Translations under genes and position numbers: made by a program
Shown: piece by piece, positions 30,613 through 36,343 of the stretch
Layout of the letters: each line of letters opens with the position of its first letter
Numbering within the stretch: position 1 is the stretch's first letter
Assembly: GCA_029547385.1 (NCBI GenBank)
Contig: JAKPPK010000175.1
Coordinates: forward strand, 1-36,523
Direction of reading: 5' to 3'
Length of the DNA: 36,523 nucleotides
From: Candidatus Latescibacterota bacterium
Lineage (GTDB): Bacteria; Latescibacterota; MWCZ01
Notes under the pieces: model-generated
Told to the model about the DNA's origin: nothing
Seen by the model: only the letters and a program-made list of their open reading frames with translations
Databases searched by the model: none

Positions 30613-31428
30613 ATGAATCGTGGCGCCGTTACGTCGGTCTCAATGCTTCTTGCAGCGTTGGCATTCTTGTCCCTTTCGTGCAGCCGCGGCCCCAAAGCGG
30701 GAGATGTGATCAAGGTCAAGGGCAAGGAAATGGTGTACATCCCGGGCGGAACCGTGACGCTCGGCGATTCGACAATGGGCCGGTTGACGGTTACGCTGAA
30801 GCCCTATCTTATCGACAAGCACGAGGTAACGAACGGGGAGTACCGCGAATTCGCGAAGGTATTCGGCTTACCGTTCTCTGTCGCTCCGGCGTACGACGAC
30901 CTCCCTGTTGTGAACATACCGTGGGAGACCGCCGATGCGTTTGCGGCGTGGAGGGGATGTCGCCTGCCGACCGAAGCCGAATGGGAGTTCGCGGCGCGGG
31001 GAACTGACGGAAGGCGGTACCCCTGGGGCAACTCGGCTGACGCGGAAAAGGCCAACGGCGACGACGGCGTCGACATCATGACTGTTCCCGATGGTTCCAA
31101 GGACGGGTTTTCAGGTCTTGCACCGGTGGGAATGTTCCCGAAATACGCAAGCCCGTTTGGCGTCGAGGATATGAGCGGGAACGTCTGGGAATGGGTTCAG
31201 GATTGGTATGCGCCATATCCGCCAAATGCGGTTTCTGACTACGCTGGCCCCGACAGCGGCGAGCAAAAGGTCGTGCGCGGGGGGAGCTTCAAGACGAATT
31301 TCCTCAATCTCCGCACGTTCCATCGGGCATACCGCGTTCCCGGAGCCGCGGCGGATGATGTGGGGTTCCGGTGCGCAAGCGACTACCCTCCGCGTGAACC
31401 GGGCGCGTTGCCTTCCACCGTAAGGTGA
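30613..31428 (+). CDS. FGE/SUMF1-fold (formylglycine-generating enzyme-like) lipoprotein
   Basis: Signal/lipobox MNRGAVTSVSMLLAALAFLSLSC; YIPGGTVTLGDS; KHEVTNGEYREFA; RLPTEAEWEFAARG; YPWGN; DMSGNVWEWVQDWY; VVRGGSF. Confidence 0.93.
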   Translation: MNRGAVTSVSMLLAALAFLSLSCSRGPKAGDVIKVKGKEMVYIPGGTVTLGDSTMGRLTVTLKPYLIDKHEVTNGEYREFAKVFGLPFSVAPAYDDLPVVNIPWETADAFAAWRGCRLPTEAEWEFAARGTDGRRYPWGNSADAEKANGDDGVDIMTVPDGSKDGFSGLAPVGMFPKYASPFGVEDMSGNVWEWVQDWYAPYPPNAVSDYAGPDSGEQKVVRGGSFKTNFLNLRTFHRAYRVPGAAADDVGFRCASDYPPREPGALPSTVR

Positions 31429-31484: not shown

Positions 31485-32717
31485 TCAGTCTTCGAGTTCG
31501 ATTCGATACTGAAGGCTGTCGGCGGTCCAGTCGATGGAGCCTCCCTCCCGGAAATCCCTGGCGAAGAGGCGCGCCATGTGTATCAGCACATGACCCGTCT
31601 CCCTGTCCTCCCGCGCATAGAAGTTGGACAGCGTAAGGAAGGGACTTTCGCCAGGCTTGCGGTCGTCAACTGCCCACACGCTTCTCCGTAGCAAGCGTCC
31701 CGTCACTTCGTCCACCTGACCAACGACGAGTGGGTACCGCGGGCTGTTTCCCTGCGGGTTTTCCTCGCAGATGTTCCCGATCCAGAACAACCTTTCGTCG
31801 CGGTGTCGGTATAGCTGCGAACAGGAACTCGGTGAATGGAACGTGGTCCCATCGTCATATGTCCACGGAGCGGGAACACTCCACGTTTGCCCGCCATCAC
31901 GGGATTCCGAGTACCATTTCCACCCAGGCAAGTCCGGACGCTTGTCGTTGCTGCCCCTCATCACCATGATAATGCGGCCGTCGGGAAGCTGCGCGATCGT
32001 TGGTTCGATGAGTCCCCTGGTTGTTCGTTCCGGATCCGCAATTATCTTGTCAGACGCCGTCCACCGGAGGCGCCCTCCCGGAAGCCAATGCCCGAACAAG
32101 ACCATGCAGTTCGTGTAGGTGAACCCCGCGCCGGGATTCAGATACATGCCATCCGGCCCGGCGGGGGTGTACTGGATGGGAACGAGGAGAACCCCATCCG
32201 CACGTGTGATCGGTCTCTGTCCCATATCTCCGATCATCGCACATGTCTTCCCGACCGAAATCCCCGGGAGGTGGTTGACTGCGTCGTACTCTTCTCCATC
32301 ATGGATAATCTGCTCGTCAACAAGGAAAGTCCTGCCACCATCTTCTGAAACCGAGTAGTGGAGTTTCCACTGACGCATCCCTTCAAGGGGATCATCCGTC
32401 GGCAGCACTCCCTCGTTACGCACGGTCAGGTACCTTCCCGTGAGCGGATCCACGTACCCTCCCGCAGGGTACCTGCGTCGCGTTCCTTTCGGGTCGGGGA
32501 ATTCGGTCTGAAACGTTTCTTCAGCGCTCCACGTTCTACCGTTGTCGTTCGAGAATCGAACAAACGCCACGTCCGTGGTGTCACTTCGACTTTCGTACCC
32601 GTGAATGCTCGTGAGGTTACCACCTTCACGAGTCGTGTAATACGAGGATGCGTGCGTTGCAACTCCTTTGCACGGACTGGGCATGAAGACGACTCTGTCG
32701 ATCACTTTTCCGGTCAT
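31485..32717 (-). CDS. BNR/Asp-box sialidase-like protein
   Basis: Asp boxes SNDNGRTW, SEDGGRTF, SRDGGQTW. AGGGGG RBS upstream of MTGKVIDRVVF (an ATG at 32723 is also possible). No signal peptide. Confidence 0.85.
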   Translation of the reverse strand: MTGKVIDRVVFMPSPCKGVATHASSYYTTREGGNLTSIHGYESRSDTTDVAFVRFSNDNGRTWSAEETFQTEFPDPKGTRRRYPAGGYVDPLTGRYLTVRNEGVLPTDDPLEGMRQWKLHYSVSEDGGRTFLVDEQIIHDGEEYDAVNHLPGISVGKTCAMIGDMGQRPITRADGVLLVPIQYTPAGPDGMYLNPGAGFTYTNCMVLFGHWLPGGRLRWTASDKIIADPERTTRGLIEPTIAQLPDGRIIMVMRGSNDKRPDLPGWKWYSESRDGGQTWSVPAPWTYDDGTTFHSPSSCSQLYRHRDERLFWIGNICEENPQGNSPRYPLVVGQVDEVTGRLLRRSVWAVDDRKPGESPFLTLSNFYAREDRETGHVLIHMARLFARDFREGGSIDWTADSLQYRIELED

Positions 32718-32800
32718 GCGCATGAACCCCCTGCTCAATTGTCCGCCTGCAGCACTTCGTTACGGGCTTTGATGGCTTCACAGATTGTTGCCGACGAGCA

Positions 32801-35800
32801 CTAATCGTTTCGTTCGGTTCTTTGTTGGCCGATCTCTGCGGCAAGAATTGCGCGAAGTTGACTTCTGACGCGCGTTACAACCCCTTCATCGCACCCGGAT
32901 TCCAGAACCTGTCGTATCATCGCTGCTCTGCTGCGTGTGAGTTCCATGGCGCGTGCGGTATCACCTCGCCCGCGCGCGTTGTCCGCCGCCCGCGAAAGCA
33001 ACCACAGGCGCGCGTAGTCCTCAATTCCAATCCGCACTCCCTGCCAGCGATGACTCGGTATCACAGAACCGCCCGCGCCGTGGTACACGAGCTCCCAATC
33101 ACAGCAGCCGTCGTGGGGGCCCTGCCAGAAATCGACGCTCCTCCCGGCATACGACCAGATGCCCAGACCAGAAAGGCCCATCTCTGTGCCTTGCCAGATT
33201 GGCTGCCAGTAGTAGCGCATCCGAGTGTTATCCTTCGCGCCATCGCCGCACTCATAGGTCCACGTGGGCTTGCCTTTGGCGAGAACCCGTTCGAGATGAG
33301 CGAAGTTCATGATGGGATCGAAGATGTCAACGACTTCGTTCAAATCGTCAACATGCTGCGCGGTCGCACCTCCCGCCGGGTTGGCGAAAATCCTCACCCG
33401 GGGATCGGCTGTTTTGTACAGGCGGGCAATACGTATCAATTCGTACACGCTGGGGCCGCCGTCGATACCGGGCTCGTCGAGGATGTAGTTTGCGTGGCGA
33501 TCTGGCAGCACCCCGCGCGCGGCCAGACCGTCCAACCACCGTGGCACGAAGGTCTGGAACGCTTTTTCCCACGCAGGAGAACCCGAGCCCGGGGCACCTT
33601 CCGCTGGTTGGACGATGGTTTCGCGACCGTGCCACAGGAAGAACGAGCCGCTCGGGGCGCGCCGAAGAACATCCTCCACGGCGGCCCAGTCCTCTGCGGC
33701 TATTTCCCCGTCAGCGTTGTAACGCACGGTGGGCACCGGGATATCGTACACATTCACGTAATGGGCCCGGAGGTCAGCCCAGACTGCGTCCCTTTCAAAG
33801 AAAGCGGGTTGTTCATATGCCCAGACGCGGAAAGCCAGTGGCATGGAATCCGGGAGGGCGACGGTGCTCACTTCCCATTGGAGCGGGATACGCAGTACGT
33901 CCCCTGCGACAGTCAGCGCACGCACGGAAAGCGTTGAGGAATAGACTCCCGCGGGTGTGTCGCCCGATGACCAGTCGAGCCACAATCGGAGCGTTTCGCC
34001 TGCAGGGATGGTCACCACGCCGGAAGGATCGAGCTCGGGTAACGCGTCAGGGGTGTACCCACCCCGGGCCGTCGCGACGAACACCCTGCGGCGAAGAGCA
34101 ACCGCGCTGAGTGGAGGGGCTGTTTCGCCCCCCCTCCAGGGATCCAACCATACGCGCACCGAAATCGTCTCGCCGGTAAGGTTGGCGACGGACACTGAGG
34201 TTGCTTCGTGCGCGCGTCGGTCTGTCGTTACCCGTATGGTATCAGTGGGTTCGGATTGAGGAGCGTCGGTATCGGGATCAAACGGCACCCACGGGTGACC
34301 CGGATCCCACGCGACTATCTCCGTTGTCTGCCCGGTGTGTTGGGCCGCTGTCCGCAAAGCGTACCGGCGGCGGGCCAGCTCAGCTCTCAGCCTGCCGATC
34401 TCTTTCTTCCCTTCCTCCGCGAGAAGCCTCTTTTCCTCCTCAGTCCCACGCGCAAGGCACTGCTCAGCCTGTATGCCAAAAAGCGTCTGTCGGGCGCGAA
34501 GATTGCCCAAATATGAGGCCGTCGGAGCCGCACTCCCAGACAGCCCTGACAACTCCTGAAGGATCGCTGCCGCGACCTGCTTCTCTCGGGCGAAGGGCAC
34601 GAATGGGACGCGCTCTGAGGTTTCACCCAGGATTGTCCCATCGGCCTTTTGGACCCGAGTTTTCAACGTGTATGTCCCCGGTTCGAACGGGGCGATCCAA
34701 CCGTGGTCAGGATCGTCCATACGGTTCACGAACACATTGCGATGCCCGACCGGGGGAGTCGCTTCCACCCAGACCCACGAATTGCCGGGAACGCTGGCTG
34801 AAGCAAACCGAACGTGTTGCTTGCCGGTGCCAACAAACTCAGGCTCCGCCCGCGTAATGCGCGCAGCTCCGATAGGGCGTGGAGCAAGGGTTCGAACGTG
34901 TCCCGCCTCGGTGAGGCGACTCCTCCGGCCGTCAAAATCCCCGCGGCTGGTCGGCCACTGGATCTCGCCGCCCGGCAACGCGCCCCGCACTTTGCGGGCA
35001 ATGACCTGACCATTGCCCGCTTCTACTGTGATGAACTCCGGGATACCGTCCCTATCGATGTCCGCTATGAGCGGCGCGCCCCAGGTTGTTCCGCCCAAGT
35101 CGATGTTGGTTTTCTCATTCCCGTCGGCGTCAAGTACGCGCAGCGTTCCGTGGTGGATCCGCGGCATGAGCAACTCCGGTTCCCCGTCACCATCCAGATC
35201 CGCCACGGTGGGACCGAAAAGCAGCCCGCTGCTGCCGCCGAAGCTCAACGAGCGAAGGACCTTCTTGTCTGTTCCCAGAATCTCCTGTCCTGTTTTGTTC
35301 CAGCCCACGAAAATCCGCCACTGGCCGTTGGTTCTGAACGGCACAACGGAGCAATGAAGTCCGATGTTGCAGTTTGTGCTCTGGTGCTTCCAGATCTCCC
35401 GTCCGGAGCCATCGAGGCAGCGGATCTGCCCGTCCGTATCGCCGAGTGCCAGTACGCGGGGGCCATCTCCCCAGTCAACGATGAGCGGCGAATGATAGCC
35501 GGCTTCGCCGTTCGTCATCGTCGGCGTCACCCAGCGGAGTGAAGCGTCGGCGCCGAAACAGTGGATGCGGCCGTCGAAACTGGACACCACTATCTCATCG
35601 GACCCATCGCCATCGAGATCACCGACCGCAGGCATCGCGATGAGGGGAAAGTGTGTGCGCTCGGAAAGATGAATCTGCCAGACGATGCTGCCATCCGCGC
35701 GCAAAGCTGACAGGCGCCCCCTGCGATCCGTCACGACCAGGACTGCATCGCCTCCCCTTACGAGAGGGGCAATGCCGCTCCACGGGCTGATCCCCGAATG

Positions 35801-36187
35801 CCCCCAGTCAGCGTTGGAAAGATTTCCCAGGGAAACGCGCCACCGAAGCGTTCCGTCCGGGGCGAACGCGTGCAGCGTCCCATCGCTGTCTCCAATCAGA
35901 ATCGTCTTGCCCACAGGCAGTTCGATGGTTGTAGGCCAGCCGTGAGCGCGCGCGTCGATCTTTGCACTCCAGCGCACCTCACCACCGCCGTTCAGCGCGA
36001 GGATGTCGCCGTTGTCGGTTCCGACGATTACCAGCGGGCCTTCGGGCGTGTCCACCAGCCCCGGGCAACCGCGGACCTGCGAATTGGTATCGTGGGTCCA
36101 CAGGACGTCAAACGACAACGGCCCGACGGCTGCTGCGGGGGAGGCAGCTAACGCCGCCGCAGCGAAAGCGCGAAAAGATCGACTCAT
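32801..36187 (-). CDS. Exported multidomain protein: FG-GAP/PQQ-like beta-propeller, Ig-like segment, GH123/DUF4091-like catalytic domain
   Basis: Signal peptide MSRSFRAFAAAALAASPAAAVG. Propeller repeats with calcium motifs DLDGDGSDE, DLDGDGEPE, DIDRDGIPE. C-terminal NYILDEPGIDGGPSVYELIRIARLYK, GIWSYAGRSVDFWQGPHDGCCDWELVYHG...SHRWQGVRIGIEDYARLWLL typical of DUF4091. AGGAAGGA RBS. Confidence 0.87.
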   Translation of the reverse strand: MSRSFRAFAAAALAASPAAAVGPLSFDVLWTHDTNSQVRGCPGLVDTPEGPLVIVGTDNGDILALNGGGEVRWSAKIDARAHGWPTTIELPVGKTILIGDSDGTLHAFAPDGTLRWRVSLGNLSNADWGHSGISPWSGIAPLVRGGDAVLVVTDRRGRLSALRADGSIVWQIHLSERTHFPLIAMPAVGDLDGDGSDEIVVSSFDGRIHCFGADASLRWVTPTMTNGEAGYHSPLIVDWGDGPRVLALGDTDGQIRCLDGSGREIWKHQSTNCNIGLHCSVVPFRTNGQWRIFVGWNKTGQEILGTDKKVLRSLSFGGSSGLLFGPTVADLDGDGEPELLMPRIHHGTLRVLDADGNEKTNIDLGGTTWGAPLIADIDRDGIPEFITVEAGNGQVIARKVRGALPGGEIQWPTSRGDFDGRRSRLTEAGHVRTLAPRPIGAARITRAEPEFVGTGKQHVRFASASVPGNSWVWVEATPPVGHRNVFVNRMDDPDHGWIAPFEPGTYTLKTRVQKADGTILGETSERVPFVPFAREKQVAAAILQELSGLSGSAAPTASYLGNLRARQTLFGIQAEQCLARGTEEEKRLLAEEGKKEIGRLRAELARRRYALRTAAQHTGQTTEIVAWDPGHPWVPFDPDTDAPQSEPTDTIRVTTDRRAHEATSVSVANLTGETISVRVWLDPWRGGETAPPLSAVALRRRVFVATARGGYTPDALPELDPSGVVTIPAGETLRLWLDWSSGDTPAGVYSSTLSVRALTVAGDVLRIPLQWEVSTVALPDSMPLAFRVWAYEQPAFFERDAVWADLRAHYVNVYDIPVPTVRYNADGEIAAEDWAAVEDVLRRAPSGSFFLWHGRETIVQPAEGAPGSGSPAWEKAFQTFVPRWLDGLAARGVLPDRHANYILDEPGIDGGPSVYELIRIARLYKTADPRVRIFANPAGGATAQHVDDLNEVVDIFDPIMNFAHLERVLAKGKPTWTYECGDGAKDNTRMRYYWQPIWQGTEMGLSGLGIWSYAGRSVDFWQGPHDGCCDWELVYHGAGGSVIPSHRWQGVRIGIEDYARLWLLSRAADNARGRGDTARAMELTRSRAAMIRQVLESGCDEGVVTRVRSQLRAILAAEIGQQRTERND

Positions 36188-36343
36188 TTGCAGTCCTTCC
36201 TGAGAGCTGAACCGATGGGAACCGAAGGGAGGATAACGCGCGGATTCGTGAAGCAATCGGAATCAAGGGTAAGCCTGAGGGACGTGCGCAGTCAACGCCT
36301 GTCCGGGCTTATACGGTTGCGAAGTCGTTGCAGGAAGCAGGGG

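Follow-up and report, generated by a model that had tools for sequence, protein, structure and literature searches.

The GH123 family was enlarged in 2024 through the DUF4091 domain and has been reconstituted by CAZy as one large family with subfamilies (PMC11087588). Nine residues are strictly conserved in all beta-NGA groups, D95, W115, D327, E328, Y392, G427, W431, Y466, and R478 in NgaLy numbering (PMC11087588), and mutations identify the DE pair as catalytic, Y392 and W431 as important for substrate recognition, and the other five residues as important for stability (PMC11087588, Sumida et al. 2024). The closest described enzymes are NgaDssm (8k2j/8k2k), a deep-sea Group 3 OR/MR beta-N-acetylgalactosaminidase of 542 aa, and NgaCa (8k2f), a Group 1 oligosaccharide-releasing beta-NGA (PMC11087588); neither has a propeller. 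BvGH123 (5l7r) and the classic GH123 exo-beta-NGAs are described by PF13320 and PF22680.

Propeller modules at the N terminus are known from other glycan-acting enzymes. In the iota-carrageenan sulfatase CgsA, two propellers, as modelled, accompany a C-terminal TIM barrel of the amidohydrolase superfamily (PMC4144425), and the same source cites lambda-carrageenase, a member of an unrelated glycosidase family, for the same propeller-plus-catalytic organisation. The protein described here would share with both the combination of glycan-directed activity and an N-terminal propeller module, and a C-terminal TIM barrel, as in CgsA, is predicted for it, although the amidohydrolase-type catalytic module of CgsA is unlike GH123. 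A search of mainly open-access literature found no paper naming both GH123 and FG-GAP. The original prediction that no enzyme of this architecture had been characterised is borne out by that search and has to be qualified by the propeller-plus-barrel precedents: the principle is known, and what is new is its combination with a GH123-type domain and the size of the overlooked branch.

The gene lies in a window of 36,523 nucleotides, the whole stretch of DNA that was analysed, which corresponds to contig C58 in a genome of 3.5 Mb. It runs on the minus strand, from an ATG at 36187 to the stop at 32801, and all features of the gene given below are on that strand. The open frame encodes 1128 aa, close to the approximately 1130 aa originally claimed for 32801-36187, and those coordinates are right; a plus-strand reading of the same interval is ruled out by interrupting stops. 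A ribosome-binding site, AGGAAGG (36195..36201), is positioned 7 bases before the ATG. Residues 1–21, MSRSFRAFAAAALAASPAAAV (36125..36187), resemble a signal peptide, and this region (residues 1–22) is 95.5% identical in the orthologue of a sister genome. The claim of a single exported polypeptide thus stands directly for the one open frame, and the signal-like N-terminus suggests that the 1128-aa protein is exported after synthesis.

The N-terminal half of the protein (residues ~28–415; 34943..36106) is an eight-bladed propeller of the PQQ/FG-GAP type, as judged by Pfam, internal repeats, and PDB matches. Three Pfam families score above their curated cut-offs, PF25292 (Beta-prop_CGLA, 1.6e-15), PF13517 (FG-GAP_3, 4.5e-10), and PF01839 (FG-GAP, 2.2e-08), the first of which is the Pfam propeller of lambda-carrageenase. 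The blade unit GxhxAh...GxhxW occurs eight times, at residues 60, 103, 157, 206, 253, 300, 347, and 394, with a spacing of ~47 residues and with degenerate final copies. The calcium-type motifs on which the propeller had originally been proposed are all present: DLDGDG at residues 190–195 (35603..35620) and 330–335 (35183..35200), and DIDRDG at residues 376–381 (35045..35062). Repeats above the Pfam cut-off together with three DxDxDG motifs place this half among the PQQ/FG-GAP (VCBS-type) propellers. Its PDB matches are designed and natural PQQ-type propellers, and the window protein has no match to the PQQ quinoprotein dehydrogenase family beyond short repeat-type similarity. An identity as a PQQ-dehydrogenase or as BamB was rejected, as the similarity is at the level of the repeat and BamB falls far under its cut-off.

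Two segments follow the propeller. Residues ~440–530 (34598..34870) form strands in a low-confidence model and are a weakly supported beta segment; an Ig-like character, as first suggested, is weakly supported by a FlgD_ig match in one relative (E 0.007). The charged helical linker is directly visible in the sequence ahead of the enzyme half, at residues ~534–620 (34328..34588), and is helical in the same model. A further helical segment, the C-terminal tail (residues 1059–1128; 32804..33013), closes the protein, again from the sequence and from helices in a low-confidence model. That model, an AlphaFold2 prediction from an alignment of two sequences, one of them a near-identical relative, has a pLDDT of 34 and is not used here as evidence for the fold.

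The catalytic half is not visible to single-sequence searches. The Pfam run on domain architecture recognised the propeller half and not the C-terminal half, for which single-sequence Pfam, NCBIfam, and phmmer searches against the PDB gave no match. At E<=1, PF13320 (GH123_cat, formerly DUF4091), under which the classic GH123 enzymes fall, matched neither the window protein nor its C-terminal half, and it found no match in the window's whole genome. Relatives bridge this gap: L058, L059, L060, and L071 exceed the curated PF13320 cut-off of 23.1 bits, CBM9-fused relatives among them, and the propeller-fused relative L055 is marginal at 18.7 bits. A family profile aligned by hhalign with the Pfam-positive GH123 relatives gives E 6.5e-39 over 443 columns.

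Against the PDB, a profile of 13 relatives, all from the same phylum, matches NgaDssm best (8k2j, 4e-32), followed by NgaCa (8k2f, 4e-18), NgaP2 (8k2n, 2e-06), 8k2h (6e-06), and BvGH123 (5l7r, 1e-04); propeller-bearing members alone (A6) match 8k2j at 7e-28. The homology to NgaDssm extends over the beta-sandwich and the barrel, with no detectable similarity between the two single sequences; the match to NgaCa is weaker across the middle of the barrel, and that to BvGH123 covers the beta-sandwich. In terms of domains, residues ~630–780 (33848..34300), with D714 and W736, correspond to the predicted N-terminal beta-sandwich of a GH123-type enzyme by the profile matches to 8k2j, 8k2n, 8k2h, and 5l7r and by conserved-residue mapping, and residues ~785–1058 (33014..33835) to a predicted (beta/alpha)8 catalytic barrel that ends in a DUF4091-type segment.

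The catalytic pair, D904-E905 (33473..33478), lies in the DEPG motif of the original prediction (residues 904–907), is invariant in 13/13 relatives, and is aligned with the DE of 8k2j; the pair is also common to NgaCa and BvGH123. All nine group-invariant residues are present in the window protein, as they are in NgaDssm: D714, W736, D904, E905, Y978, G1007, W1011, Y1035, and R1047, a mapping made by profile alignments and spacing rather than by structure, with the G-W and Y-R spacings (427–431 and 466–478) kept. One relative has F in place of Y978. Together, the profile matches and the nine residues support the fusion of a propeller to a GH123/DUF4091-like catalytic domain that had been proposed from the sequence. 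Given the enlargement by CAZy, the protein can fairly be filed under enlarged GH123, but not under Pfam PF13320.

The modules can be compared with an orthologue in a congeneric genome, with which the window protein shares 91% amino-acid identity. The window and this sister genome are colinear over 13 kb at 89% DNA identity, a stretch that includes the gene, and dN/dS for the whole gene is 0.11. The conserved frame and this ratio identify a real single gene; a chance or artefactual fusion is excluded. By module, dN/dS is 0.09 in the propeller, 0.17 in the beta and helical linkers, 0.15 in the beta-sandwich, and 0.052 in the barrel, the most constrained module at 95.7% identity, a range of 0.05–0.17 across all modules past the signal region. 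Purifying selection thus acts on the propeller half, the catalytic half, and the junction. These values also bear on whether the C-terminal half could be a degenerate, non-catalytic relative, which would make the protein a glycan-binding or signalling protein. Its position under Pfam detection and the multi-copy expansion in some genomes would fit such a loss, but the barrel is the module under the strongest constraint, and the DE pair is kept together with the substrate-contact residues Y978 and W1011, so that we regard a non-catalytic role as very improbable.

Two further sequences of the window's genome resemble the gene. A 95%-identical fragment of residues 1–303 is present on a second contig (L002; C244:1-909) and has an internal TAA at the contig end, likely due to strain variation or a binning duplicate. 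A paralogue of 35% identity (L003/L066; C239) occupies a frame of 1322 codons that is interrupted within the match by a single in-frame TGA; the corresponding frame in the sister genome is open, and the TGA is probably a start-site or strain difference.

The protein is probably best described as an exported multimodular glycosidase of enlarged GH123 with an accessory propeller; its catalytic half would use substrate-assisted catalysis to hydrolyse linkages of beta-GalNAc, or possibly of beta-HexNAc. We hold this reading with reasonable confidence. After export, the propeller would tether the enzyme to a glycan polymer that may be sulfated, and the barrel, by homology to the solved enzymes, would cleave a beta-HexNAc bond, most likely beta-GalNAc; D904 would position the 2-acetamido group, and E905 would serve as the acid/base. 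The insert of ~20 residues that precedes the catalytic strand in NgaDssm is missing from the window protein, a weak hint at an open cleft and at a release of oligosaccharides.

To our knowledge, no member of this GH123 branch has been characterised, and its substrate could therefore differ. The GH123-type fold and active site might instead act on another 2-acetamido sugar or bond, as a beta-N-acetylglucosaminidase or hexosaminidase, or in an endo-acting manner on a repeating exopolysaccharide or glycosaminoglycan, with the propeller serving endo-attack. Precedent for such variation exists in the Group 2 beta-hexosaminidases and the oligosaccharide-releasing Group 1 enzymes (PMC11087588); the branch is remote from every characterised group, with no single-sequence PDB match, and the absence of the NgaDssm insert suggests a more open cleft. 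The shape of the cleft is, however, not readable from sequence alone, and by profile the best match is to an OR/MR beta-N-acetylgalactosaminidase, so that another specificity is conceivable and, in our estimate, distinctly the less probable outcome.

The propeller-GH123 architecture is not a one-off and recurs as a family in at least two phyla. Distant paralogues with this fusion are present in the window's genome and in its sister genome. The fusion also extends to G061, from another family of the phylum, and to a second phylum, where it was first found in genome G340. In this second phylum, the catalytic family has at least one match in 55 of 68 genomes at E<=1e-20, with up to seven per genome, and a propeller is present in 24 of 30 inspected loci (family propeller HMM); a sizeable glycan-degrading capacity may therefore be hidden. 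As the branch escapes the Pfam model, annotation pipelines relying on Pfam would call such a protein an "FG-GAP/PQQ repeat protein", and the enzyme would go unnoticed. In a viral collection, a single-protein query returned no match. A tree of 23 catalytic domains places the nine propeller-bearing ones on one side of a branch with support of 85/76, which is not decisive.

In relatives outside the propeller branch, the N-terminal position is taken by known or probable sugar-binding modules: F5/8C (discoidin), CBM9, or LamG. This swapping is the main reason, a circumstantial one, to read the propeller as a binding module; by analogy it is probably an accessory, glycan-binding module and is a candidate for a new carbohydrate-binding module. 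Targeting of the substrate by the propeller, as originally suggested, is an inference. Protein interactions are a frequent role of PQQ/FG-GAP propellers, as in BamB and integrins, and the propeller could accordingly be a structural, dimerisation, surface-anchoring, or protein-binding domain that takes no part in glycan targeting. Such a role can be rationalized with the BamB-like similarity of the window propeller and with family members that seem to lack a signal peptide (L105 and L111); against it stand the exchange with F5/8C, CBM9, or LamG in the same slot, a best Pfam propeller match that is defined on lambda-carrageenase, and the predicted export of the enzyme. We consider a propeller without a function in targeting to be unlikely.

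The two members just mentioned are propeller-GH123 paralogues (L105:5518-8799:- and L111:6558-9884:+) in which no obvious signal peptide follows the start; unless these starts are wrong, cytoplasmic as well as exported proteins may occur in the family. In another genome, a 1390-aa protein (L073:1100-5269:-) has a GH123_cat barrel preceded by a GDSL lipase/esterase domain, a possible fusion of an esterase with a beta-GalNAcase.

The neighbourhood of the gene fits a role of the glycosidase on sulfated or mucin-like glycans, without amounting to proof. A BNR_2 (sialidase-like repeat) protein (Pfam BNR_2, 1.3e-14) is encoded on the minus strand 62 bp downstream (31485..32738; 417 aa from a TTG), and a BNR_2 ORF likewise follows the propeller-GH123 gene in the sister genome. 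In the second phylum, a gene of the BNR_2 type directly adjoins a propeller-GH123 gene on the same strand. Other propeller-GH123 copies have an alpha-L-fucosidase or a DUF4838 protein as neighbour. In the window, the BNR_2/propeller-GH123 pair faces a convergent FGE-sulfatase gene (30613-31428); the two genomes of the genus contain 21–28 sulfatase-family matches, with fragments counted. Latescibacteria have been reported to carry sulfatases, to degrade algal and O-linked glycans, and to be capable of GalNAc catabolism (PMC4454575). A wider proposal is that this diverged GH123 branch, missed by Pfam and often fused to a propeller, forms a multi-copy glycan-degrading system in two phyla, and acts on a beta-HexNAc polymer new to GH123, the propeller being a carbohydrate-binding module of a new type; taken as a whole, we regard it as speculative and would sooner doubt it than adopt it.

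Two minor observations concern the sister genome. Its BNR_2 ORF (L070:10456-11859) opens at an ATG that overlaps the end of the propeller-GH gene, in contrast to the TTG in the window, and the true BNR_2 start is therefore uncertain. Upstream, a protein (L070:2-856:+) matches HZS_alpha, the hydrazine synthase middle domain, at 1.8e-18 and adjoins a Lactonase/cytochrome D1-like propeller protein.
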